This document shows, piece after piece, positions 10,810 to 20,681 of a stretch of 64,000 nucleotides of DNA. Position 1 is the first letter of the stretch. Every line of letters starts with the position of its first letter. The position numbers and the translations under genes are program-made. The DNA lies in NCBI GenBank assembly GCA_022841825.1, contig JALHQT010000008.1, forward strand, positions 248,001 through 312,000, in the 5' to 3' direction. The notes beneath the pieces were generated by a model. It saw only the letters and a program-made list of their open reading frames with translations, had not been told where the DNA came from and did not search any database. Source of the stretch: Anaerolineae bacterium. Its GTDB lineage: Bacteria; Chloroflexota; Anaerolineae; Aggregatilineales; Phototrophicaceae.

Positions 10810-12252
10810 TTACGGCAGTTGAAAGCCGTCAGGTGGTCGTACACGTTCTGCACAGCTCATGTCGGGCGCTGTGGTGGGATCTTCGATGAATCCGGTCAGC
10901 AGCCGTGCGGCACACGGGTTTTGCGTGACGTAATGCAGGTGGTAGGGCAGCATCAACCCATGTCCATTCGGCAGCGTCGCCAGCGTCGAGTCCAGCCACT
11001 CCTGCGAACTAAACGGGTCGAGCGCGCCGCTCACAATCAGCGTTGGCACGTCACTGACGGCGGGCAGGCGATCTTCAAGGGTCGGCACACGCGCACCCCA
11101 GGCAGTGCATTGGGTGATCTCATTGTCGAGCCTGCGCTGGAACGCCGCCCGAAATACCGGACGGATCTCCTGCAATGCGGCACTGAAGTCCTCCGGCGTG
11201 ACGGCAAGGATGCTGTCAGTGCAGCGCATAGAAAAGTATGCGCCAATTGGATTCAATGGATCGGGCAGCGGCGTGAGCCGGGTCGCATACACCTCGACCA
11301 CCTCGTATTGTTCGGCGTACAAAGCGCCAATGAAGCCGGGGATGATCGGTATGTTCTGGTCATCTTTCATGAGTTGACTCAATCCGGCGATGAGTTCATA
11401 GCCAGTGACGACGACATCGACCCCATGTACCACCACGGGAAGCGGCTCGGCATTTAACCGCTCGACCACGACCGCCACGCTGTCCACCAAACCTTCTGGG
11501 AATGCGGCGCGGCACGCAGCATCTTCATCACAGAGTGCGGCGATGGCATCCAGAGTGCGCTGGAAATAGACCGGGATCGCCGAAGACAGGTCACCCTGTG
11601 GGGGCTGAAGCGCCGTCACGATGGCGGCACGGATGTTTTCCGGATGATCGCGCAGCAGCGTCATGGCGACCGACGAGCCATACGACCCGCCCCAGATGTT
11701 GTACGTCTCGTAGCCCAGCGCGCGCACAATATCGGCGGCGTCGGCGGCGTTATCGCGCGTGGTGAAGTCCGTGACATCGACGCCCTGCGCCGCGAAGCGA
11801 TCATGGCACGTTGTCACCCAGTCGGTGTTCGCCGGGTCGAGCGACTCCGGACAGGTCAACGCGGGTTCCGAGTAGCCCATGCCGCGATAGTCAAACAGTA
11901 TCAAATCCCGCTGGCGATTGACGCGCCGCATGAAATCGCCCAATCCTCCTGTGTAGGAGTCCAGCGTTCGTCCACCGGGTCCGCCATCCAGGAAGATAAG
12001 CGGGTCGGGCGAGGGATTGGGGCTGGTGGCGGCGAAGACTGCCACCGCCAGACGCACATCCGGCTCATCCGAATGGGCGCGATCCTGCGGCACGACGACC
12101 ATCCCGCAGCGCACATCCGCATGGCTGGCGAAGCGCACTGGGCAATCCCCCGGCTCGAATACCGGCACCGCCTGGACGGAGACAGCCGACGCGACGAAAG
12201 CGAGCAGCCACGAAGCAACAGCGATAACAAACCAGCGTACCAATCGGTTCAT
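10810..12252 (-). CDS. secreted alpha/beta hydrolase with TAP-like C-terminal domain
   Basis: 480 residues. An N-terminal signal peptide (residues 1 to about 28) precedes an alpha/beta hydrolase: oxyanion loop 'DGGPGGRTLD', 'DYRGMGYSEPAL', nucleophile GGSYGSS, an acid in 'VSGALDPFSS', and a late His in 'MLPYHLHYVTQNPC'. The Cys-rich loops and the C-terminal TAP-like segment match the secreted tripeptidyl aminopeptidase/SlpD-like branch of family S33. It is likely to trim peptides or esters outside the cell. The exact substrate is not visible. Confidence 0.85.
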   Translation of the reverse strand: MNRLVRWFVIAVASWLLAFVASAVSVQAVPVFEPGDCPVRFASHADVRCGMVVVPQDRAHSDEPDVRLAVAVFAATSPNPSPDPLIFLDGGPGGRTLDSYTGGLGDFMRRVNRQRDLILFDYRGMGYSEPALTCPESLDPANTDWVTTCHDRFAAQGVDVTDFTTRDNAADAADIVRALGYETYNIWGGSYGSSVAMTLLRDHPENIRAAIVTALQPPQGDLSSAIPVYFQRTLDAIAALCDEDAACRAAFPEGLVDSVAVVVERLNAEPLPVVVHGVDVVVTGYELIAGLSQLMKDDQNIPIIPGFIGALYAEQYEVVEVYATRLTPLPDPLNPIGAYFSMRCTDSILAVTPEDFSAALQEIRPVFRAAFQRRLDNEITQCTAWGARVPTLEDRLPAVSDVPTLIVSGALDPFSSQEWLDSTLATLPNGHGLMLPYHLHYVTQNPCAARLLTGFIEDPTTAPDMSCAERVRPPDGFQLP

Positions 12253-12335
12253 GACTCCATCCTCCCAATGATCGAAATATCCTCGGAGATTGTGCGACGC
12301 GACCAGACAGCAGGATCATTCATCAGCTTGGCTCC

Positions 12336-12761
12336 TCAACTCTCTCGCGCCAGTCGAACGTTTTCAGCGGCGATGACATGCCATAGGACGAACAGGACGA
12401 TACTTCCGCTCAGAAGCAGCATCCCCAGTGTCATCACGGATATACCCAGCGTGTCCCGCTGGCGAAGCGAGCGCCACCGGAGTGGCGAGATGTGCGTGTG
12501 CATGACAAAGGCTGTATTCATCACAAATGGCAGCAGCCCTATCACGATCAGCATGAAGGGAAGCGCGACATGCTCGCCCAGGCGATTCGTCCCGGCGAGC
12601 ACGGGGCTGAACGCATAACCCGCCAATTCGACGACAAACAGCGACTCGAAACCAGCGAACACGCCCATCAGCCGCCAACCGACGCCATCGCGAGCGAGCA
12701 GCGACAAGACCAGCGCCCCATGGAGTGCGAGCCAGAATGTCGTCGTCGCAGAGTCGTGCAT
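12336..12761 (-). CDS. small membrane protein, function unknown
   Basis: 141 residues with four predicted membrane helices (about 8-22, 33-50, 66-88 and 112-132). I recognise no family motif. The layout (a His pair 'MHTHI' between helices 3 and 4) is like several DUF families of small bacterial membrane proteins. It lies upstream of the secreted hydrolase with a gap of 83 bases, on the same strand, and is divergent from the two-component genes. Confidence 0.6.
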   Translation of the reverse strand: MHDSATTTFWLALHGALVLSLLARDGVGWRLMGVFAGFESLFVVELAGYAFSPVLAGTNRLGEHVALPFMLIVIGLLPFVMNTAFVMHTHISPLRWRSLRQRDTLGISVMTLGMLLLSGSIVLFVLWHVIAAENVRLARES

Positions 12762-12875
12762 CCCCGGCAGCCTTGTGGTATGTCCCCCAACACTCTCAGC
12801 CTACGCCACCCCAGACACGCTGTCTTCCGACGCGCGAGGAGTCCTGTCCCCCGATGAGCGATGGGGACTGCACCT

Positions 12876-12887
12876 GGTCAGTTGGCG
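12876..12887. promoter_or_regulatory. degenerate copy of the GGTCANNTGACC operator
   Basis: GGTCAGTTGGCG with flanks CCT and AGG matches 14 of the 16 defined positions of the longer consensus CCTGGTCANNTGACCAGG, and 10 of 12 in the core. It lies 109 bases before the sensor kinase start, a distance similar to the complete copies. A -10-like TACACT follows at 12953, so the spacing differs from the other sites. On its own it would not be called. Confidence 0.3.
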
Positions 12888-12996
12888 AGGTCATGACATT
12901 CATCACCAAAATTAATGTCCCTGGACGCTCCTTCACAGATTGCAAACCGCGTTACACTGAGTGGAGTCTGCCTACCGGAAGCAGAAAGGGGGTCGG

Positions 12997-14595
12997 ATGT
13001 CAGATCGGCACAATTCAAGCGACACATCCCCTATTTCAGATCCCGCACATGACCACACCGAACATCTACTGGGGATGCTGTTCGACCAGATGCCAATGGG
13101 CGTCGTGGTCTTTGACCGCGGCTACAATATCGTGCGTCATAACCCCACCTGGGCAGGACACATCCGAACCTATACAAAAGCGGGTGAAGTCCGGATCGGT
13201 CAGAACTTTTTTGATCTCGTCCCCGACGCACGCGCTACTCTGAAACCGCTGTTCGACCAGGTGTTGGCGGGCGTCCCTTTCCGGCAGGACAGCGTGAAGC
13301 TGACCGCAGATGGCATCGACTCGTGGTGGAACCTGGCGCTTGAGCCGATCCCGAACGGCGGGCTTCCCTCTGGCATTCTTGGTGTCTCGACGGATGTCAC
13401 CGCGCAGATTCAAACGCAGGCGGAACTGAAGCACGCGCTCGACGAACTGCGCCAGTCTCACGAGCGCATCGAGCAGCGGGTCGCCAACCGCACACATGAA
13501 CTCATGACGCTGATCAACGTACAGCAGGCACTCGCCAGCCGTCTGGACACCCAGGAAATCTTGCAGCTCATCGCGGATGAGTCGCGTCGCCTGACCAGCA
13601 CTGACATCAGTGCGCTCTTCATGCCAGACCAGGATGGGCTTTCGCTCGCCGTTCTCTCTACCGAATATGCGGTCGATATTGAGCCAGGCTACCGCATGTC
13701 GCTCACGGACTCTGTGACGGGCAGAGCATTTGCCACCGGGCAAGTGCTGCGCGTGGATGACTCGGGTCGCGAGAGTCACGTCGACCCGGTCGCCATGAGC
13801 AAAGCCTTCGTGCGCTCGATTCTATCTATCCCGCTGATCAGCGACAGCCGCACCCTCGGTGTCCTGTCCGTCGGCAATCGCACAGGTAAGTCGCTCGGCG
13901 AAGAGGTCGAACGCCTGTTGAAGCTTATGGTGCCGTCGGCGGTCATCGCGCTCGAAAATGTGAAGCGCTACGAGCAGGTGCGCGAGGCGGCAGCAGCGGA
14001 CGAACGAGGGCGGTTAGCCCGTGACCTGCATGATGCCGTCACCCAGACCTTGTTCTCAGCCAGCCTGACGGCAGAAGTGCTGCCCAAAATCTGGGATCGC
14101 AATCCGCAAGAAGGCATCAAGCGGCTGGAAAAGCTGCGCGAGCTGACGCGCGGCGCGCTGGCAGAAATGCGCACGCTGCTGCTGGAACTGCGCCCCTCCG
14201 CTTTGACAGAAGTGCCGCTCTGCGACCTGCTGCGCCAGCTCGCCGAAGGCATCGCCGGGCGCACGCGCATTCGGATCGATGTCAACGTCACCGGCACACG
14301 CGCACTCCCGACAGATGTGCAGATTGCCTTTTACCGTATCGCGCAGGAAGCCCTCAACAATGTAGCGAAACACTCCGGCGCAACGCACGCAGCCGTCGAT
14401 CTACGTTTCGAACGCAGGGTAATTCACATGGAAATCCGTGATGATGGCTGCGGCTTCGATCCTGCGTCCAGCGCAGCACATCATCTGGGCTTGAAGATCA
14501 TGACTGAGCGCGCCCAGGAAGTCGGCGCAGATCTATTGGTACAGACAGAAGTGGGGCGCGGAACTATCGTAACCGTTTTGCGAAATGAGGAGTAA
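12997..14595 (+). CDS. NarL-type sensor histidine kinase (PAS-GAF-HisKA_3-HATPase)
   Basis: 532 residues from the ATG at 12997, with AAAGGGGG 4 bases upstream. There is no membrane segment. Domains in order: PAS about 25-135, a coiled coil about 140-170, GAF about 170-320, a HisKA_3 dimerisation domain with phospho-acceptor H345 in 'RGRLARDLHDAVTQTLF', and HATPase about 435-530 (N box 'EALNNVAKHS', 'DDGCGFD'). It is therefore a cytoplasmic kinase sensing a small molecule or redox state through PAS/GAF. The response regulator follows after 8 bases. A degenerate copy of the regional operator lies upstream, so the pair may be self-regulated. Confidence 0.92.
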   Translation: MSDRHNSSDTSPISDPAHDHTEHLLGMLFDQMPMGVVVFDRGYNIVRHNPTWAGHIRTYTKAGEVRIGQNFFDLVPDARATLKPLFDQVLAGVPFRQDSVKLTADGIDSWWNLALEPIPNGGLPSGILGVSTDVTAQIQTQAELKHALDELRQSHERIEQRVANRTHELMTLINVQQALASRLDTQEILQLIADESRRLTSTDISALFMPDQDGLSLAVLSTEYAVDIEPGYRMSLTDSVTGRAFATGQVLRVDDSGRESHVDPVAMSKAFVRSILSIPLISDSRTLGVLSVGNRTGKSLGEEVERLLKLMVPSAVIALENVKRYEQVREAAAADERGRLARDLHDAVTQTLFSASLTAEVLPKIWDRNPQEGIKRLEKLRELTRGALAEMRTLLLELRPSALTEVPLCDLLRQLAEGIAGRTRIRIDVNVTGTRALPTDVQIAFYRIAQEALNNVAKHSGATHAAVDLRFERRVIHMEIRDDGCGFDPASSAAHHLGLKIMTERAQEVGADLLVQTEVGRGTIVTVLRNEE

Positions 14596-14603
14596 GTCCC
14601 AAG

Positions 14604-15242
14604 ATGACCCTTAATCCTATACGTGTGCTGATTGTGGACGACCACTCGGTCGTGCGCAGCGGCTTGTCCGATTTTCTGATGGTCTATGACGATCTCGAAC
14701 TTGTCGGTGAGGCAAGCGGTGGGCGGGCAGCAGTCGATCTATGCGTGAAGCTGCAACCCGATGTCGTCCTGATGGATATGGTCATGCCAGAAATGGACGG
14801 CGCAGCCGCCACGCAGGCGATCCGGACGCACTGCCCGGCGATTCAGGTGATCGCGCTGACGAGCTTTCGTGAGGAGGAATTGGTCAATGCCGCGCTCAAA
14901 GCCGGAGCAATAGGCTATCTCCTGAAGAATGTCACGGCTGAAGAGCTGGCAGCGGCGATCCGCTCGGCGGTGATCGGTCGCCCCACCCTGTCGCCAGAGG
15001 CGACGCTTGCACTCATGCACACGGCGACCGCCCCAAAACCTCCCGGCTTTGATCTGACAGAACGCGAGCGCGAAGTGCTGGCGCTAATGGCGGGCGGACT
15101 GAACAACGGGCAGATCGCAGAAAAACTGACGGTCAGCCTGTCCACCGTCAAATACCACGTCAGCAACGTCATCTCAAAGCTCGGTGCGTCCAATCGCACA
15201 GAAGCTGCGACCCTCGCTATTCAGCATCACCTGGTCGGCTGA
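14604..15242 (+). CDS. NarL/FixJ-family response regulator
   Basis: 212 residues. The receiver domain has the acidic pair D12-D13, phosphorylation site D58 (LMDMVMPEMDG), switch Thr/Ser in 'IALTSF' and Lys in 'YLLKN'. The C-terminus is a LuxR-type HTH (about 148-205) with 'LTEREREVLALMAGGLNNGQIA' and 'STVKYHVSNVISKL'. It is the partner of the preceding kinase. Its HTH type binds short palindromes as a dimer, which makes it the obvious local candidate for the GGTC(A/G)NNTGACC boxes found downstream. That link is inference. Confidence 0.93.
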   Translation: MTLNPIRVLIVDDHSVVRSGLSDFLMVYDDLELVGEASGGRAAVDLCVKLQPDVVLMDMVMPEMDGAAATQAIRTHCPAIQVIALTSFREEELVNAALKAGAIGYLLKNVTAEELAAAIRSAVIGRPTLSPEATLALMHTATAPKPPGFDLTEREREVLALMAGGLNNGQIAEKLTVSLSTVKYHVSNVISKLGASNRTEAATLAIQHHLVG

Positions 15243-15244
15243 CC
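15233..15244. promoter_or_regulatory. palindromic operator GGTCGGCTGACC
   Basis: One of five copies of GGTC(A/G)NNTGACC. Here the palindrome extends to CCTGGTC-GGCT-GACCAGG (15230-15247). It overlaps the stop codon of the response regulator and lies 120 bases before the start at 15365. No hexamer matches exactly at the spacing seen for other copies; TATCGC one base closer or TCTAAT at 15318 are candidates. Confidence 0.5.
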
Positions 15245-15282
15245 AGGGACTCTCCTCATCCTCTGACCCCGCGCAAGACTCC

Positions 15283-15305
15283 CCCCCAGCATATCGCTGG
15301 AGGGG
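15283..15305 (+). terminator. short GC hairpin after the two-component operon
   Basis: CCCC-CCAGC, loop ATATC, GCTGG-A-GGGG forms a stable stem with one bulge. It has no run of T behind it, so it may be a weak or factor-dependent terminator, or only a leader structure of the next gene. Confidence 0.3.
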
Positions 15306-15364
15306 AACAGTCTATTGTCTAATAAGGGAGGCATCTTAGAAGCCCACACTTTAGGAGACAGCGC

Positions 15365-15751
15365 ATGTTACGTCCGCTCTTGGCAATAATCCTTGCGGCT
15401 CACGGCATTGGACACATCCTATTTCTCGTCCCGTTGCTCGGAATTGCCGATTGGGGGCAGTCCACGCGCTCATGGCTGCTTTCAGACATGACACTTGCAC
15501 GTCTTACCGGTGCACTGATCTGGATTGCAGCCCTCATCGCTTTTGGTGCTGCTGTGTTTGGACTCATGAGTCAACAACCCTGGTGGCGCACGGCAGCAGT
15601 GATAGCAGCAATCATTTCGACGGTGGGATTACTCCTGTTCTGGGCAGCACCGATCACCGGATCGGTTTGGGCAGCGCTGATTGTTAATGTGGTGATTGTC
15701 ATTGCACTCGCGCTCCTGCGCGTTCCAAGCGTTGATGCCCTGGGATCGTGA
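15365..15751 (+). CDS. small four-helix membrane protein
   Basis: 128 residues with four membrane helices (about 4-24, 40-62, 72-93 and 98-118) and 'AHGIGH' in helix 1. It is not a family I can name with confidence; many Chloroflexota and actinobacterial genomes carry similar four-helix proteins of unknown role. AGGAGACAGCGC lies directly before the ATG. It is the first gene after the operator at 15233 and heads a string of same-strand genes. Confidence 0.65.
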   Translation: MLRPLLAIILAAHGIGHILFLVPLLGIADWGQSTRSWLLSDMTLARLTGALIWIAALIAFGAAVFGLMSQQPWWRTAAVIAAIISTVGLLLFWAAPITGSVWAALIVNVVIVIALALLRVPSVDALGS

Positions 15752-15788
15752 ACGTTTCAAACCGTTTCAAAGCGTCGGAGGCATAAAC

Positions 15789-16259
15789 ATGGAAACTACA
15801 ACAGCTCCCGAAGTTCAACTGGAAGACATGAAGGAAAAGTCGGTCGTCGGCATCCGCTTTCACACCAAGGGAAGCGAGCTGCCGGGTAACCTGCAGAAGG
15901 TCTATGCGCGCGTGCTTGAGCATCTGAAGACGCACTTCTCCAAATCGGACAGCGCCTACTGCCTCTACCATGACATGGAGAAGCAACCCTGGGATGTCGA
16001 GGCGGGTTTCGTCGTCCATCAGATCGTCGCCAGCCAGGACGACATCGAGTTCGGCACGCTGCCCGGTGGTCGGATGGCGACGCTCTGGCACATCGGACCC
16101 TACAACACCCTGAACGACTCGTGGATGGCGCTGGACGCCTACATCAAAGAACACCATCTGCATCCGAACAAGGTCATGTGGGAGCTTTACACAACCGACC
16201 CGGCGACCGAGCCAGACCCCACAAAGCAGCGCACGCTGCTGGTCTGGCCCGTCGAATAA
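15789..16259 (+). CDS. GyrI-like/AraC effector-binding domain protein
   Basis: 156 residues from the ATG at 15789, which has GGAGG 7 bases upstream. The chain is a stand-alone GyrI-like (SOUL-type) domain: 'MKEKSVVGIRFHTKGSELPG' opens the first strand, 'AGFVVHQ' and 'LPGGRMATLWHIGPYNTLNDSW' form the typical binding-cleft strand and loop, and 'ELYTTDPATEPDPTKQRTLLVWPV' closes it. These domains bind small hydrophobic or cationic molecules and either act as drug sensors or hydrolyse them. There is no DNA-binding domain. The avidin-like gene follows at once. Confidence 0.82.
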   Translation: METTTAPEVQLEDMKEKSVVGIRFHTKGSELPGNLQKVYARVLEHLKTHFSKSDSAYCLYHDMEKQPWDVEAGFVVHQIVASQDDIEFGTLPGGRMATLWHIGPYNTLNDSWMALDAYIKEHHLHPNKVMWELYTTDPATEPDPTKQRTLLVWPVE

Positions 16260-16277
16260 ATGAAACTGGAGAAAACT

Positions 16278-16652
16278 ATGAAGACCCTTGCAGGAACCTG
16301 GTACAGCGAGCGTGGTTCTCGTCTGGAAATCAGTGTCAATGACGCTGGCAGAATTGAAGGCAGCTACGCGCGTCCACATGGAAAATCCGCAGGAGACTTC
16401 CGCCTTGTTGGGATGGTCGATCCCGCACAGGTGGATGGGAATCGCTGTCTCGGCTTTGTCGTTATGTGGAACAATCCTCAGCTCAACCAGCACTCGATCA
16501 GCACCTGGTGTGGGCAGTATCACAGCGCAAGCGGTGACGAATTCCTGGATATGACCTGGCTGCTTACCGAAGAAGTGATGCCGGATGAAGATTGGAAGTC
16601 CACCCGCGTTGGCAAGGACATCTTCCATCGCCAAGCGCCGTCAAGCGAGTGA
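16278..16652 (+). CDS. avidin/streptavidin-family protein, cytoplasmic
   Basis: 124 residues from the ATG at 16278, which has GGAG 7 bases upstream; an alternative ATG at 16260 abuts the previous stop and adds six residues. The avidin pattern is unmistakable: 'LAGTWYSERGS', 'GRIEGSY', 'WNNPQLNQHSISTWCGQY', 'TWLLTEE' and 'DWKSTRVGKDIF'. Against streptavidin, S27, Y43, W79, S88, W92, W108, W120 and D128 are kept (S14, Y30, W64, S73, W77, W94, W106, D114). N23 is replaced by S10, T90 by S75, and S45 by R32. Known avidins are secreted; this one has no signal peptide. It may bind biotin weakly or another ligand. Confidence 0.85.
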   Translation: MKTLAGTWYSERGSRLEISVNDAGRIEGSYARPHGKSAGDFRLVGMVDPAQVDGNRCLGFVVMWNNPQLNQHSISTWCGQYHSASGDEFLDMTWLLTEEVMPDEDWKSTRVGKDIFHRQAPSSE

Positions 16653-16701
16653 GCCGGACCGTAAAACAGTATGAGATAAATTCGAAAAGGAGGAGATCAC
16701 C

Positions 16702-17220
16702 ATGCAGACTTATGTGCTCGTCGCCTACGCCAGCAAGTATGGCGCGACCAAGGAGATTGCCGAAAAGATAGGGCAGGTGCTCAATGCCTCTGGAATCGTC
16801 ACAGATGTCGAAGCGATTGAACAGGTGCGCGACCTGAAACCCTATACTGCCGTCATCCTCGGCAGCGCGGTCTATGCCGGGCAGTGGCTGGGCGAAGCGA
16901 CTGCCTTCCTCAAGGCGCACGAGATTGAACTGGCGCAGCGCCCAACCTGGTTCTTTTCCAGCGGACCCACTGGCGAAGGCGACCCTATCGAATTGATGAA
17001 GGGTTGGCGCTTCCCAGAAGGTCAGAAAGCGTTCGCGGAACACATCCAACCGCGTGACATCATGCTTTTCCATGGTGCGCTCGATCTGGGTAAACTCAAT
17101 TTCGCCGAGAAACTGATCGTCAAAGGCTTCAAGGCACCCACAGGTGACTTCCGGGACTGGAGCGTCATCACAGGCTGGGCAGTGCAAATTGTCGAGGCGC
17201 TTACAGCGGTCAAAGCCTGA
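16702..17220 (+). CDS. flavodoxin-domain protein (HemG/menaquinone-dependent oxidase-like)
   Basis: 172 residues with AAAAGGAGGAG before the ATG. 'VAYASKYGATKEIAEKIGQVL' is the FMN phosphate loop, 'VILGSAVYAGQWLGEATAFL' the 60s loop and 'PTWFFSSGPTGEGDP' the next strand. This matches the flavodoxin-like family that includes HemG protoporphyrinogen oxidase, though many members are simple flavodoxins with other roles. It is likely to be a cytoplasmic electron carrier or quinone-linked reductase. It lies between the avidin-like gene and a receiver-domain gene. Confidence 0.85.
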   Translation: MQTYVLVAYASKYGATKEIAEKIGQVLNASGIVTDVEAIEQVRDLKPYTAVILGSAVYAGQWLGEATAFLKAHEIELAQRPTWFFSSGPTGEGDPIELMKGWRFPEGQKAFAEHIQPRDIMLFHGALDLGKLNFAEKLIVKGFKAPTGDFRDWSVITGWAVQIVEALTAVKA

Positions 17221-17234
17221 GAACGGAACCGATC

Positions 17235-17630
17235 ATGTTTGGGCAAGCAACACCGATGCGCGTGCTGATTGCCGACCAACAGCCCAACGTCCGGCAGGCG
17301 CTCTGGCTGGTTTGTGAGCAGGGACTTGGCTTAGTGGTAGTCGCCGAGGCGGCAAATACTGGCACCCTGCTCACCCTACTGAAGGCAACGCACCCAGACC
17401 TGCTCATACTGGAATGGGGGCTTCCGGGTCTTGAAACTCCCGATCTCGTCCGCGCGCTGCTGCTGGACATACCGTTGACGATCATCGCGGTAGGCGCGCA
17501 GCAGGAAGATCGAATCGCCGCCCTCAGCGCAGGGGTGGACTATTTCGTCTACAAAGGCGATCCGCCTGAGAAGCTGTTTGACATCCTGCACAGCGCCATG
17601 AATGCGCCGCCGCAGAGGGACATCCCATGA
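17235..17630 (+). CDS. stand-alone receiver domain with Glu at the phosphorylation site
   Basis: 131 residues; the fold is a CheY-like receiver with no output domain. The phospho-acceptor position reads LLILE60WGLPG where a typical sequence has LMDLxMPG, so the Asp is Glu. The acidic pair is D14-Q15, and the switch Thr/Ser is Gly (AVGAQQ), while the Lys is kept (YFVYKG). It therefore cannot work as a normal phospho-switch and may sit fixed in an active-like form. The stop overlaps the start of the following transporter (ATGA), so the two are co-translated and may interact. Confidence 0.8.
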   Translation: MFGQATPMRVLIADQQPNVRQALWLVCEQGLGLVVVAEAANTGTLLTLLKATHPDLLILEWGLPGLETPDLVRALLLDIPLTIIAVGAQQEDRIAALSAGVDYFVYKGDPPEKLFDILHSAMNAPPQRDIP

Positions 17631-18892
17631 ACGTCGCACTCATTTCGCTGCTGGCACTGGTCGCCGCCGTACTCCTGAGTGGATTCCGGCGTGTCAACAT
17701 CGGCATCATCGCACTGGGGTTCGCCTGGGTCATCGGGCACTATATCGCCGGTCAGCCCATCGCATTTCTGCTGGAGAGCTTCCCCCTCAACCTCGCCGCC
17801 ATGCTTTTCGGCGTGTCGTTTCTCTTCGGCATCGCCGAGCAGAATGGGTCACTGCGCCGCATCACCTATCGAGTCATGCGGCTGGTACGCGGGCGCGCCG
17901 CGCTGATGCCATTGGTGTTCTTCGTCCTCGCCGCCCTGCTTTCGACCAGCGGCGCGGGCAATATCGCGACGGTCGCAGTCCTCGCGCCGATGGCAATGGC
18001 GACGGCGGGCGAGATGCGCATTAATGCCCTGCTGATGTCGATCATGCTTGCCAACGGCGCGAACGCGGGCACGTTTTCGCCCATCGCGCCGACGGGCATC
18101 ATTGCCAACAGCCTGATCCAGCAGATCGGCGTCGAGATGCAGCCCTGGACGCAGGTCTATCTCCCGACACTGCTGGCGCAAACCTTCGTCGCTCTGGTCA
18201 GCTACGGAGTCTTCGGCGGCATCGCGCTCTGGCGACACCATGAGGGTGATGGCGAGGGAGCCGCAGGTTCCCACGCCATCGAGCCAATCACGGCTGCCAA
18301 CGTCATGACTCTGCTGTGCATCGCCATCTTCATCGTCGGCGTCGTCTTCTTCAAGGCGGATGCCGCTTTTCTGACGATTTCGCTGGCGATCCTGCTCTGT
18401 ATCCTGGGCATGGGCGACCAGGAAGCGGCGGTCAAGGCGGCTCCCTGGAATACCATCCTGATGGTCTGCGGCGTGAGCGTCCTGATCGCCGTTCTGCAAG
18501 CGACGGGCGGGCTTGACCTCTTCACCTCGCTGCTCGCACGGGTGTCAACGCTGGCGACCGTGACTGGCGTGATCGCGCTGGCGGCGGCGCTGCTGTCCGT
18601 CTATTCCAGCTCTTCGGGCGTGGTGATGCCCGCCTTTATCCCGCTCATTCCGGGGCTGATCGCGCAGCTTGGCGGTGGCAGCCCGGTCGCGCTCGTCTCG
18701 TCCATCAACGTCGGCAGCCATCTGGTCGATGTCAGCCCGCTCTCGACGCTCGGCGCGCTCTGCATCGCCAACGCGCCGCCGGGCGAAGACCGCGACCGCC
18801 TCTTCCGCAGGCTGCTCTATTACGGGCTGTCAATGTCGCTGGTGAGCGCGCTGGTGTGCTGGTTCTTCTTCGGTGTGCTGCTCGGCGGTTGA
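17627..18892 (+). CDS. SLC13/MatC-like dicarboxylate permease
   Basis: 421 residues, about 11-12 membrane helices. 'STSGAGNIATVAVLAPMAMA' and 'NVGSHLVDVSPLSTLGALCIANAP' are the two repeated hairpin/unwound-helix segments of the ion transporter superfamily, and the N-terminus fits the MatC (malonate/dicarboxylate carrier) family. It is likely to import a C3-C4 dicarboxylate with sodium or protons. The start overlaps the stop of the receiver gene by four bases and the ZIP transporter gene follows after 15 bases, so all three are one operon. Confidence 0.8.
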   Translation: MNVALISLLALVAAVLLSGFRRVNIGIIALGFAWVIGHYIAGQPIAFLLESFPLNLAAMLFGVSFLFGIAEQNGSLRRITYRVMRLVRGRAALMPLVFFVLAALLSTSGAGNIATVAVLAPMAMATAGEMRINALLMSIMLANGANAGTFSPIAPTGIIANSLIQQIGVEMQPWTQVYLPTLLAQTFVALVSYGVFGGIALWRHHEGDGEGAAGSHAIEPITAANVMTLLCIAIFIVGVVFFKADAAFLTISLAILLCILGMGDQEAAVKAAPWNTILMVCGVSVLIAVLQATGGLDLFTSLLARVSTLATVTGVIALAAALLSVYSSSSGVVMPAFIPLIPGLIAQLGGGSPVALVSSINVGSHLVDVSPLSTLGALCIANAPPGEDRDRLFRRLLYYGLSMSLVSALVCWFFFGVLLGG

Positions 18893-18907
18893 GCGGGAAA
18901 GAAAAAC

Positions 18908-19723
18908 ATGATTATCGAGATGCTGCAATCACTCCCCCCAATTGGGCAAGCCATCGCCGCCACATTGTTCACGTGGGGCGTGACGGCGCTCGGCGCAGCG
19001 GCGGTCTTCACCACGCGCGAGATCAGCCCCAAGTTACTCGATTCAATGCTCGGATTTGCGGGCGGCGTCATGATCGCCGCGAGCTTCTGGTCGCTGCTCG
19101 CGCCTGCGATTGAGCATGCCGAAGGCGGCTTACTCCCAGCCTGGGTGCCCGCGTGTACGGGTTTCCTGGCGGGCGGCATCGTCCTGCGCCTGATCGATAA
19201 GGTGCTCCCGCATCTTCACATCGGCTTTCCGCGACGCGAAGCCGAAGGCATCCGAACGGGCTGGCAGCGTGCGGTGCTGCTGGTAATGGCGATCACCCTG
19301 CATAACATCCCCGAAGGACTCGCGATTGGCATCGCATTCGGTGCGGTGGCGGCAGGAATTCCATCCGCCACGTTTGCAGGCGCGATTGCGCTGGCGCTGG
19401 GGATCGGACTCCAGAACTTTCCCGAAGGTGTCGCGGTGGCAGTTCCCTTGCGGCGCGAGGGCATGTCGCGGATCAAGAGCTTCTGGTACGGGCAGCTATC
19501 GGGCGCGGTCGAACCGATCGCTGCCGCAGTCGGTGCGCTTGCGGTCATTTCGATGCGTCCGCTCTTGCCATATGCCCTCAGCTTTGCGGCAGGCGCGATG
19601 ATCTTTGTCGTCGTTGAAGAAGTGATTCCCGAGTCTCAGCGCGGCGGTCACACCGACCTCGCAACCATGGGGGCGATGCTCGGATTTGCGACTATGATGC
19701 TGCTCGATGTCGCGCTTGGATAG
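18908..19723 (+). CDS. ZIP-family divalent metal transporter
   Basis: 271 residues with eight membrane helices. The metal-binding motifs of helices 4 and 5 are plain: '[11 protein letters not shown]' and '[14 protein letters not shown]', with N, E and H/Q ligands. The second motif has Q-N-F instead of H-N-x, as in the ZupT/GufA group of prokaryotic ZIPs. It moves zinc or related ions into the cytoplasm. It is followed on the opposite strand by CorA- and VIT1-type genes, so the 18.9-22.1 kb stretch is a metal-transport cluster. Confidence 0.9.
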
Positions 19724-19748
19724 GACAGATCCCTACACGCCACGTGTT

Positions 19749-20681
19749 TCACATCCAGCGACGCCGCCAAAAGATATAGCCGACCGCAGCCGAAACGCCG
19801 AGCGAAAGCACCATAAGAATGGGAAACGCGGCTGGGGAGTCCTGCATGGGCAGCAGAACATTCATCCCGTAAATGCTGGCGACCATCGTAGGAAGGCTGA
19901 GAACAATCGTGATCGCCGCGAGGAATTTCATCACGACATTCAGGTTGTTGGAGATGATGGAAGCGAACGCATCCATCATCTGACTCAGAATTCCCTCCGT
20001 GATCGTCGTGATTTCGACGGCTTGCATCGTTTCGATGACAACCTGATTCAGAAGTTCGTGATCCTCCGCCAACATCTCGAAGTGTTCATTCTGTCTGAGT
20101 TGATCCAACAAGAGCGCATTAGAGTTCAGTCCGGTCGTGAAATAGACAAGACTCTTCTGCAATTTGAGCAGCACGAACAATTCCTGGTTTCGCTGCGCCA
20201 CCGACAGCTTGTCCTCTGCCACCTCAAGGACTGCCTTAAGGTGCCCGAGCTGCGACAGAAAATCCTCGGCAGTCGCAAGCAGGGCGTAAAGCACAAATCG
20301 CTCTGGTCGCAGAAAACCAGCATCGCCCCGACTCAGCCCAGTGAGCTTTTCCAGCAATGGCGCTGGGTGATTGCAGACGGTGATGATGTGATCGGGTATC
20401 AAGAGAATGCTTAGCGCTGTGGTCTTGTAGCCATCGCCAGGCGTCCTGGAGAGATGATAGGGGATGCGCAAGACAATCAGTTCGACACTGCCGCTGGTTT
20501 CATAGCGCGCCAATTCGTCGAGGTCGAGGACATGCGTAACAAAGCGATCTGGAATCCCAAAGCGCGTTCGTAAAACCTGCAAGTTGTCTTCTGTTGGGGA
20601 CTCGATCCATACCCAACATCCAGCTTGCAAGGTCTCGCGCCGCTCAAGCCCAAGGGAGGTCTGCTGATAGAAGTGGATCAC
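19749..20681 (-). CDS. CorA-family magnesium/divalent cation transporter
   Basis: 310 residues if the GTG at 20681 is used (AAGG 8 bases upstream); the frame extends to 20735. A large N-terminal cytoplasmic alpha/beta domain is followed by a long coiled helix and two C-terminal membrane helices, with the pore signature YGMNV between them (GMN motif). The C-terminus is basic (FWRRRWM). This is the full CorA layout, forming pentameric Mg2+ or Co2+/Ni2+ channels. It converges with the ZIP gene. Confidence 0.9.
   Translation of the reverse strand: MIHFYQQTSLGLERRETLQAGCWVWIESPTEDNLQVLRTRFGIPDRFVTHVLDLDELARYETSGSVELIVLRIPYHLSRTPGDGYKTTALSILLIPDHIITVCNHPAPLLEKLTGLSRGDAGFLRPERFVLYALLATAEDFLSQLGHLKAVLEVAEDKLSVAQRNQELFVLLKLQKSLVYFTTGLNSNALLLDQLRQNEHFEMLAEDHELLNQVVIETMQAVEITTITEGILSQMMDAFASIISNNLNVVMKFLAAITIVLSLPTMVASIYGMNVLLPMQDSPAAFPILMVLSLGVSAAVGYIFWRRRWM

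Follow-up and report, generated by a model that had tools for sequence, protein, structure and literature searches.

A signal-less avidin with an altered biotin pocket, conserved in a small clade of Anaerolineae

Here we describe an avidin gene at positions 16278-16652 (+ strand) of a 64,000-nucleotide stretch of Anaerolineae DNA, hereafter the window (the whole stretch that was analysed). Its product, a protein of 124 amino acids without a signal peptide, has the complete tryptophan box of streptavidin together with five altered biotin contacts, all of them common to its two nearest relatives. The variant is real and conserved, within a family already known, and its likely role has an experimental precedent in another avidin. 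In our judgement there is an even chance that the protein serves as a cytoplasmic, exchangeable store or buffer of biotin with a loosened ureido pocket, in a bacterium that imports biotin. The role of bacterial avidins kept inside the cell is a largely open question, on which this clade bears: a cytosolic binder as tight as streptavidin should compete with biotin ligase.

Identity and predicted fold

The open reading frame is intact (124 codons plus stop), and its translation matches the Pfam family Avidin (PF01382) with an E-value of 5.9e-24 and 85.1 bits, compared with a cut-off of 24. The original prediction of an avidin homologue was thus correct in both place and family. In phmmer comparisons with streptavidin chains the best E-values were 2.3e-37 (a tandem chain) and 7.3e-21 (single chains), and the best 60 matches listed were all streptavidins. 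Against the NCBIfam streptavidin equivalog NF047623 the protein scored 79.7 bits, below the cut-off of 300, which places it by sequence among the avidins but apart from streptavidin itself. An AlphaFold2 model built on a 22-row alignment has a pLDDT of 87.1 and a pTM of 0.80. Foldseek matched this predicted model to streptavidin entries (TMq 0.78-0.85 among the best 50 matches), and VIA-align gave its best match to tamavidin 2 (Z 18.5, r.m.s.d. 1.9 over 119 residues), with streptavidin also matched. The fold is predicted to be like that of streptavidin and tamavidin 2, that is, an avidin beta barrel.

The host genome holds one copy of the gene. Neither a viral nor a plasmid origin was retained: a viral scan yielded one pattern match, which was unrelated, and a plasmid search two Streptomyces records at 37.7%. 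A promoter or an Rfam element was likewise rejected as an explanation of avidin control, with no sigma-70-like promoter site in 15200-17700 and no Rfam match in 12000-20000. Terminator-like sites in 15200-17700 number three, compared with 2.4 expected.

Start codon and location in the cell

The first possible ATG in the avidin frame, at 16260, is abutted by an in-frame TAA (16257-16259), which is the stop codon of the GyrI-like gene upstream. Starting at this ATG would add the residues MKLEKT (16260-16277, + strand) to the protein. We favour ATG 16278 as the start, because a GGAG at 16267-16270 (+ strand), its probable ribosome-binding site, fits it. Depending on the start, 5 or 11 residues stand ahead of the GTW motif. 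With a stop codon directly 5' of the first ATG, a signal peptide is impossible on this sequence. The prediction that the protein lacks one is thereby borne out, and the chance that a signal peptide might appear from a different start is ruled out by the same TAA. The accompanying statement that avidins are mostly secreted was too strong: the survey of bacterial avidins by Laitinen et al. (PMC8033661) gives predicted signal peptides in about 50% of them, and an avidin without one is not rare among bacteria.

The biotin pocket

Streptavidin numbering is used for all pocket positions. Fourteen contacts were scored (N23, S27, Y43, S45, N49, W79, S88, T90, W92, W108, L110, S112, W120 and D128), of which S27, Y43, W79, S88, W92, W108, L110, W120 and D128 are unchanged in the window protein. 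The tryptophan box (W79, W92, W108 and W120) is therefore complete in the alignment. The alignment places Ser at N23 (codon 16305-16307), Arg at S45 (16371-16373), Lys at N49 in the lid loop L3,4 (16383-16385), Ser at T90 (16500-16502) and Glu at S112 (16569-16571), all on the + strand. The four tryptophans and D128, and the replacement of N23 by Ser and of S45 by Arg, had been recognized beforehand and are all real; K49, S90 and E112 are additional and were absent from that account. Overall, the protein matches streptavidin at 9 of the 14 contacts, compared with 30 of 103 other positions (P = 0.014). At site 86, which lies outside the 14 contacts, the window protein, its two nearest relatives (L004 and L005) and the sequences with Gly at 23 have Gln, and streptavidin has Ala.

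Within the hydrogen-bonding set of streptavidin (N23, S27, Y43, S45, N49, S88, T90 and D128), N23, S45, N49 and T90 are altered. Since this set varies within the avidin family, its incompleteness does not count against membership; what it lowers, judged from the residues, is the expectation that the protein binds like streptavidin. In streptavidin, N23, S27 and Y43 bind the ureido oxygen of biotin and S45 and D128 the ureido hydrogens, and the S45A mutation alone costs 4.3 kcal/mol, as described in PMC4888747. The engineered 'Dead' subunit combines N23A, S27D and S45A and has an open lid, as described in PMC5175265. The window protein is naturally altered at two of these three positions (23 and 45); unlike the 'Dead' subunit it is natural, keeps S27 and has Arg, not Ala, at 45. 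Compared with streptavidin of Streptomyces avidinii (about 33% identical; L026) and streptavidin C1, it has the same predicted fold, the tryptophan box, S27, Y43, S88, L110 and D128, but differs at N23, S45, N49, T90 and S112 and has neither a signal peptide nor a C-terminal tail.

The extra Cys (TWCGQY) singled out in the original prediction is present. Within the trio formed by the window protein, L004 and L005 it is private to the window genome, with Ala in L004 and Ser in L005, and it was rejected as a functional feature. A second Cys (GNRC) is common to all three proteins.

Conservation of the altered pocket

A scan across genome contigs gave 33 avidin loci, of which 21 were aligned with the window protein and 12 (L022, L023, L025 and L027-L035; Streptomyces) were left unaligned. 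The tree comprises 29 sequences and the contact table 25, with L059 and L062-L064 in the tree only and L003 left out of both the tree and the contact counts. The nearest relatives of the window avidin, L004 (66% identical) and L005 (63%), both come from Anaerolineae metagenome-assembled genomes, and the three form a clade with support of 100/99 in the tree. S23, R45, K49, S90 and E112 occur together in all three members, so that comparison with the closest relatives, the first check proposed for the gene, finds N23S and S45R in both.

All 14 contact columns are identical within the trio, compared with 71 of 122 columns overall (P = 2.8e-4); for the five altered columns alone, P is 0.046. Across the three trio pairs, third codon positions are 42-44% identical and first and second positions 74-87%. 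For the two pairs that include the window gene, dN is 0.28-0.30 and dS at least 1.9; dS is saturated for the third pair. The identity of the contacts, together with this codon pattern, points to purifying selection on the trio avidins and to an altered pocket that is maintained and is not decaying. Three sequences are a small clade, and we count this as a weakness of the storage reading.

Avidins elsewhere in the Chloroflexota

Within the order, 10 of 154 genomes carry an avidin. These genomes all belong to the window's taxonomic family, and in the window's own genus the count is 1 of 15. The ten comprise the window protein, L004-L011, which had already been found, and L041, which is new. Among 61 relatives two carry an avidin, as do two in a phylum sample of 400 (the window's own genome is counted in both). 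The ten Chloroflexota sequences group together with support of 100/100 in the 29-sequence tree, and none retains the full set of ureido contacts: Ser replaces N23 in three and Gly in six, and L010 keeps N23 and has Asn for D128. All 13 aligned avidins from outside the Chloroflexota keep N23, S27, Y43 and D128; L061, from a Burkholderiales survey, has Ala at 128. In these alignments the window's lineage stands out for its eroded ureido contacts.

The sister clade (L006-L009, L011 and L041) resembles the window protein in that no signal peptide is seen, N23 is lost and the taxonomic family is the same. It differs in having Gly at 23 and Thr at 45. K49 and E112 of the window clade contrast with Asp or Glu at 49 and R112 in five of the six sister sequences (L041 has G49), although the sister-clade lid has an insertion and the alignment at position 49 is unsure. 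The L041 avidin (1492-1908) has Gly23, Ala27 and Phe43, so that all three ligands of the ureido oxygen are altered, with the tryptophan box kept.

A MaoC-like gene, which is not a feature of the window, lies 3' of the avidin gene in five of the six sister-clade loci (L041 excepted). This putative dehydratase gene is directly downstream in L006-L009 and L011, with a gap of a few bases in L008, L009 and L011. The copy of L007, the one to which Pfam was applied, matches PF01575 (E 4.2e-26), with a weaker match to mesaconyl-CoA hydratase. A distant avidin match of 38.4 bits was also seen in the same phylum (L003, 1486-1950, - strand); W79 is missing by eye, and the protein is perhaps not a biotin binder.

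Gene neighbourhood

Directly upstream of the avidin gene lies a gene for a GyrI-like small-molecule-binding protein (15789-16259, + strand; PF06445, E 2.5e-16), and downstream of it one for a flavodoxin of the Flavodoxin_5 family (16702-17220, + strand; PF12724, E 1.9e-29). Both neighbours are as first described. Neither gave a tblastn match in the fetched stretches round the L004 and L005 avidins, and given this absence a functional link of the avidin to them was rejected.

Farther out are genes for a PAS-GAF histidine kinase (12961-14595; PF07730 and PF13185), a LuxR-type response regulator (14604-15242; PF00072 and PF00196), a 128-residue protein without a Pfam family that is a membrane protein by eye (15365-15751) and a receiver-only response-regulator protein (17235-17630; PF00072), all on the + strand. 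The kinase recurs in L049/L004, L045 and L046 (where the contig end cuts the copy), the LuxR-type regulator in L045, L046 and L049 at 74-79% identity, and the receiver-only protein in the same three. Window positions 12961-17630 and the stretches L045, L046 and L049 thus present a recurring block of kinase, LuxR-type regulator, membrane protein and receiver-only protein, with GyrI-like, flavodoxin and avidin genes variably between or beside them.

This block lies around or beside the avidin gene in the window and in L004/L049. The stretches fetched as L045 and L046 contain the block but no avidin, and in the L045 genome the avidin gene is on a different contig; block and avidin lie together in two of the four genomes examined that hold all four genes. 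The L005 avidin stands, by eye, between an ABC ATPase-like gene and a carbamoyl-phosphate-synthase-like gene, in a 12-kb locus in which none of the block genes was found. No neighbour gene is common to all three clade members.

Biotin supply in the host lineage

No BioB above the curated cut-off was found in any of 98 family genomes; matches below it occur in 96 of the 98 (best 40.9 bits, compared with 225). A divergent BioB might escape this test, since of 14 control genomes only 7 reach the cut-off. We found BioY in 56 of the 98, all ten avidin carriers among them, and each of the ten also has domains of the biotin/lipoate ligase family and the C-terminal domain of biotin carboxylase. This gene content (no BioB above the cut-off, together with BioY, a ligase-family protein and carboxylases) suggests a biotin-auxotrophic host that takes up biotin through BioY and uses it. 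Among the BioY-bearing family genomes, 46 of 56 have no avidin, which weighs against the storage reading.

The association of BioY with avidin was not taken as independent evidence, because P is 0.0025 over the 98 genomes and 0.19 when one genus is omitted (34 genomes, no avidin, BioY in one). In genus g17 (34 genomes) there is no BioB over the cut-off, and BioY occurs in one genome only. Of the eight neighbours scanned together with the avidin, none was seen to be a biotin gene, another point against storage.

A possible cytoplasmic biotin store

We infer a biotin-like ligand from the contacts that are kept, and an affinity for biotin that is lower than that of streptavidin from the loss of affinity in streptavidin mutants at N23 and S45. 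Biotin would enter the cell via BioY. In the avidin, the intact tryptophan box would hold it together with S27, Y43, S88, L110 and D128, less tightly than in streptavidin owing to the replaced N23, S45, N49 and T90. Loosely held in this way, it could be released again for use by biotin ligase and the carboxylases.

Rhizavidin, the avidin of Rhizobium etli, bears a signal peptide. Three rhizavidin-like loci (L062-L064) were judged by eye to have a hydrophobic N-terminus and to retain the N and S of the WTNQxGS motif. Like the window protein, rhizavidin is an avidin in an (apparent) biotin auxotroph with biotin uptake genes; as described in PMC8914248, mutating rhizavidin in the auxotrophic R. 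etli revealed a part in storing biotin, and in Rhizobium avidin homologues are found together with biotin transport genes. This similarity of host setting suggests, by analogy, cytosolic storage as the role of the window protein. The same paper calls rhizavidin a high-affinity binder, however, and storage therefore does not need low affinity, which counts against our reading. Rhizavidin also differs in being a homodimer (PMC3344845). Bradavidin can be likened to the window protein as a bacterial avidin with tuned access to biotinylated ligands; it tunes by a C-terminal intrinsic ligand, according to PMC3344845, whereas the window protein is tail-less.

The original prediction had offered a different ligand alongside low-affinity storage. 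Its cytoplasmic location and altered contacts stand, and are conserved in the trio. It is unlikely, in our view, that the pocket has been re-tuned for another small ligand to be carried or sensed, such as a biotin precursor, a degradation product or some other ring-containing molecule that turns an acidic or hydrogen-bond-accepting group towards Arg45. Arg45 only donates hydrogen bonds, at a place where Ser45 of streptavidin meets a ureido hydrogen of biotin (PMC4888747), K49 and E112 add charge, and the five changes are common to three of three clade members; the pocket Arg and Lys might instead favour the binding of a carboxylate. Yet the nine contacts shared with streptavidin, among them all four tryptophans, S27, Y43 and D128, make another ligand less likely than a biotin store, and no shared neighbour gene points to one.

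The protein might also bind biotin as tightly as usual, be signal-less by chance, have its substitutions compensated, and serve in defence as a biotin trap set free when cells lyse. The intact tryptophan box is compatible with this, about half of the surveyed avidins are signal-less in a survey that favours defence (PMC8033661), and avidins are patchy among the relatives and in the phylum sample. We nevertheless consider it rather improbable: substitutions at N23 and S45 reduce the affinity of streptavidin (PMC5175265 and PMC4888747), and a tight cytosolic binder would be expected to compete with the cell's own biotin ligase. The location of the avidin gene in or beside the kinase block of the window and L004/L049 might suggest a regulator that, on binding either biotin or a biotinylated carrier protein, signals this state to the neighbouring two-component system. 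The block without an avidin in L045 and L046, the separate contig of the avidin in the L045 genome and the L005 locus free of block genes all argue against this, and we regard it as very unlikely.

A natural clade altered at two positions that engineers use to cripple streptavidin, in a lineage apparently without biotin synthesis, is a direct test case for reversible intracellular storage, and laboratories could gain from it an avidin that evolved naturally and lets its ligand go. The literature searched yielded no description of the altered pocket and no relevant paper on Chloroflexi avidins; the variant may already stand in published sequence lists (for example the supplement of PMC8033661, in whose main text the word 'Chloroflexi' is absent).

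C-terminal tails of signal-less avidins

In the window protein, L004 and L005 the chain stops just past the final strand, and a C-terminal tail reaching the biotin site is absent from all three. Other signal-less avidins carry an SHP tail: those of Nitrospirota (L012 and L013), Gemmata (L014), Flavivirga (L015), Janthinobacterium (L017) and Methanoperedens (L024), that is, 6 of the 10 non-Chloroflexota sequences without an evident signal peptide (the N-termini of L059-L061 were judged by eye). A Chitinophagaceae avidin (L016) and its second copy (L059) have SLP instead of SHP, and L060 and L061 have no C-terminal tail. The SHP motif aligns to G151-N152-P153 of streptavidin in both MAFFT and phmmer. 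As described in PMC3344845, residues 150-153 of full-length streptavidin fold into the biotin site, and the artificial Strep-tag II is WSHPQFEK; the C-terminal peptide of streptavidin C1 also folds into the biotin site (PMC7924230). No title or abstract opening on SHP tails in natural avidins was found in the literature searched.

In the AlphaFold2 model of L015, residues 120-128 form a helix, and the block pLDDT is 94 for residues 121-130 and 78 for residues 131-139. VIA matched residues 1-138 of this model to full-length streptavidin (2bc3; 133 residues, Z 18.1) and to streptavidin C1 (7cq0; 134 residues, Z 17.3); among the other 48 matches listed, one reaches residue 126 and the rest end at or before 119. 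The SHP tails, which are Strep-tag-like, are predicted to fold back as in full-length streptavidin, with the qualification that AlphaFold2 may have learned this arrangement from 2bc3 and 7cq0.

We tentatively suggest, as a rather doubtful extension of the storage reading, that cytoplasmic avidins spare their own cell's biotin, either by an SHP-tail plug or, where the tail is lost, by a weakened pocket as in the window clade. The guanidinium of Arg45, which is ureido-like, may rest on D128 when the site is empty, and K49 with E112 may act as a latch for the lid. This would make the protein a reversible buffer of biotin, built for that purpose. Against the plug, the authors of PMC7924230 report that the tail regions of streptavidin C1 have no effect on its biotin-binding ability, and in bradavidin the tail affects mainly large biotinylated ligands (PMC3344845). 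A rule that the tail is lost when N23 is lost was rejected as not general, since L060 and L061 keep N23 and yet are tail-less. The L010 avidin has PSP, a remnant of the tail.
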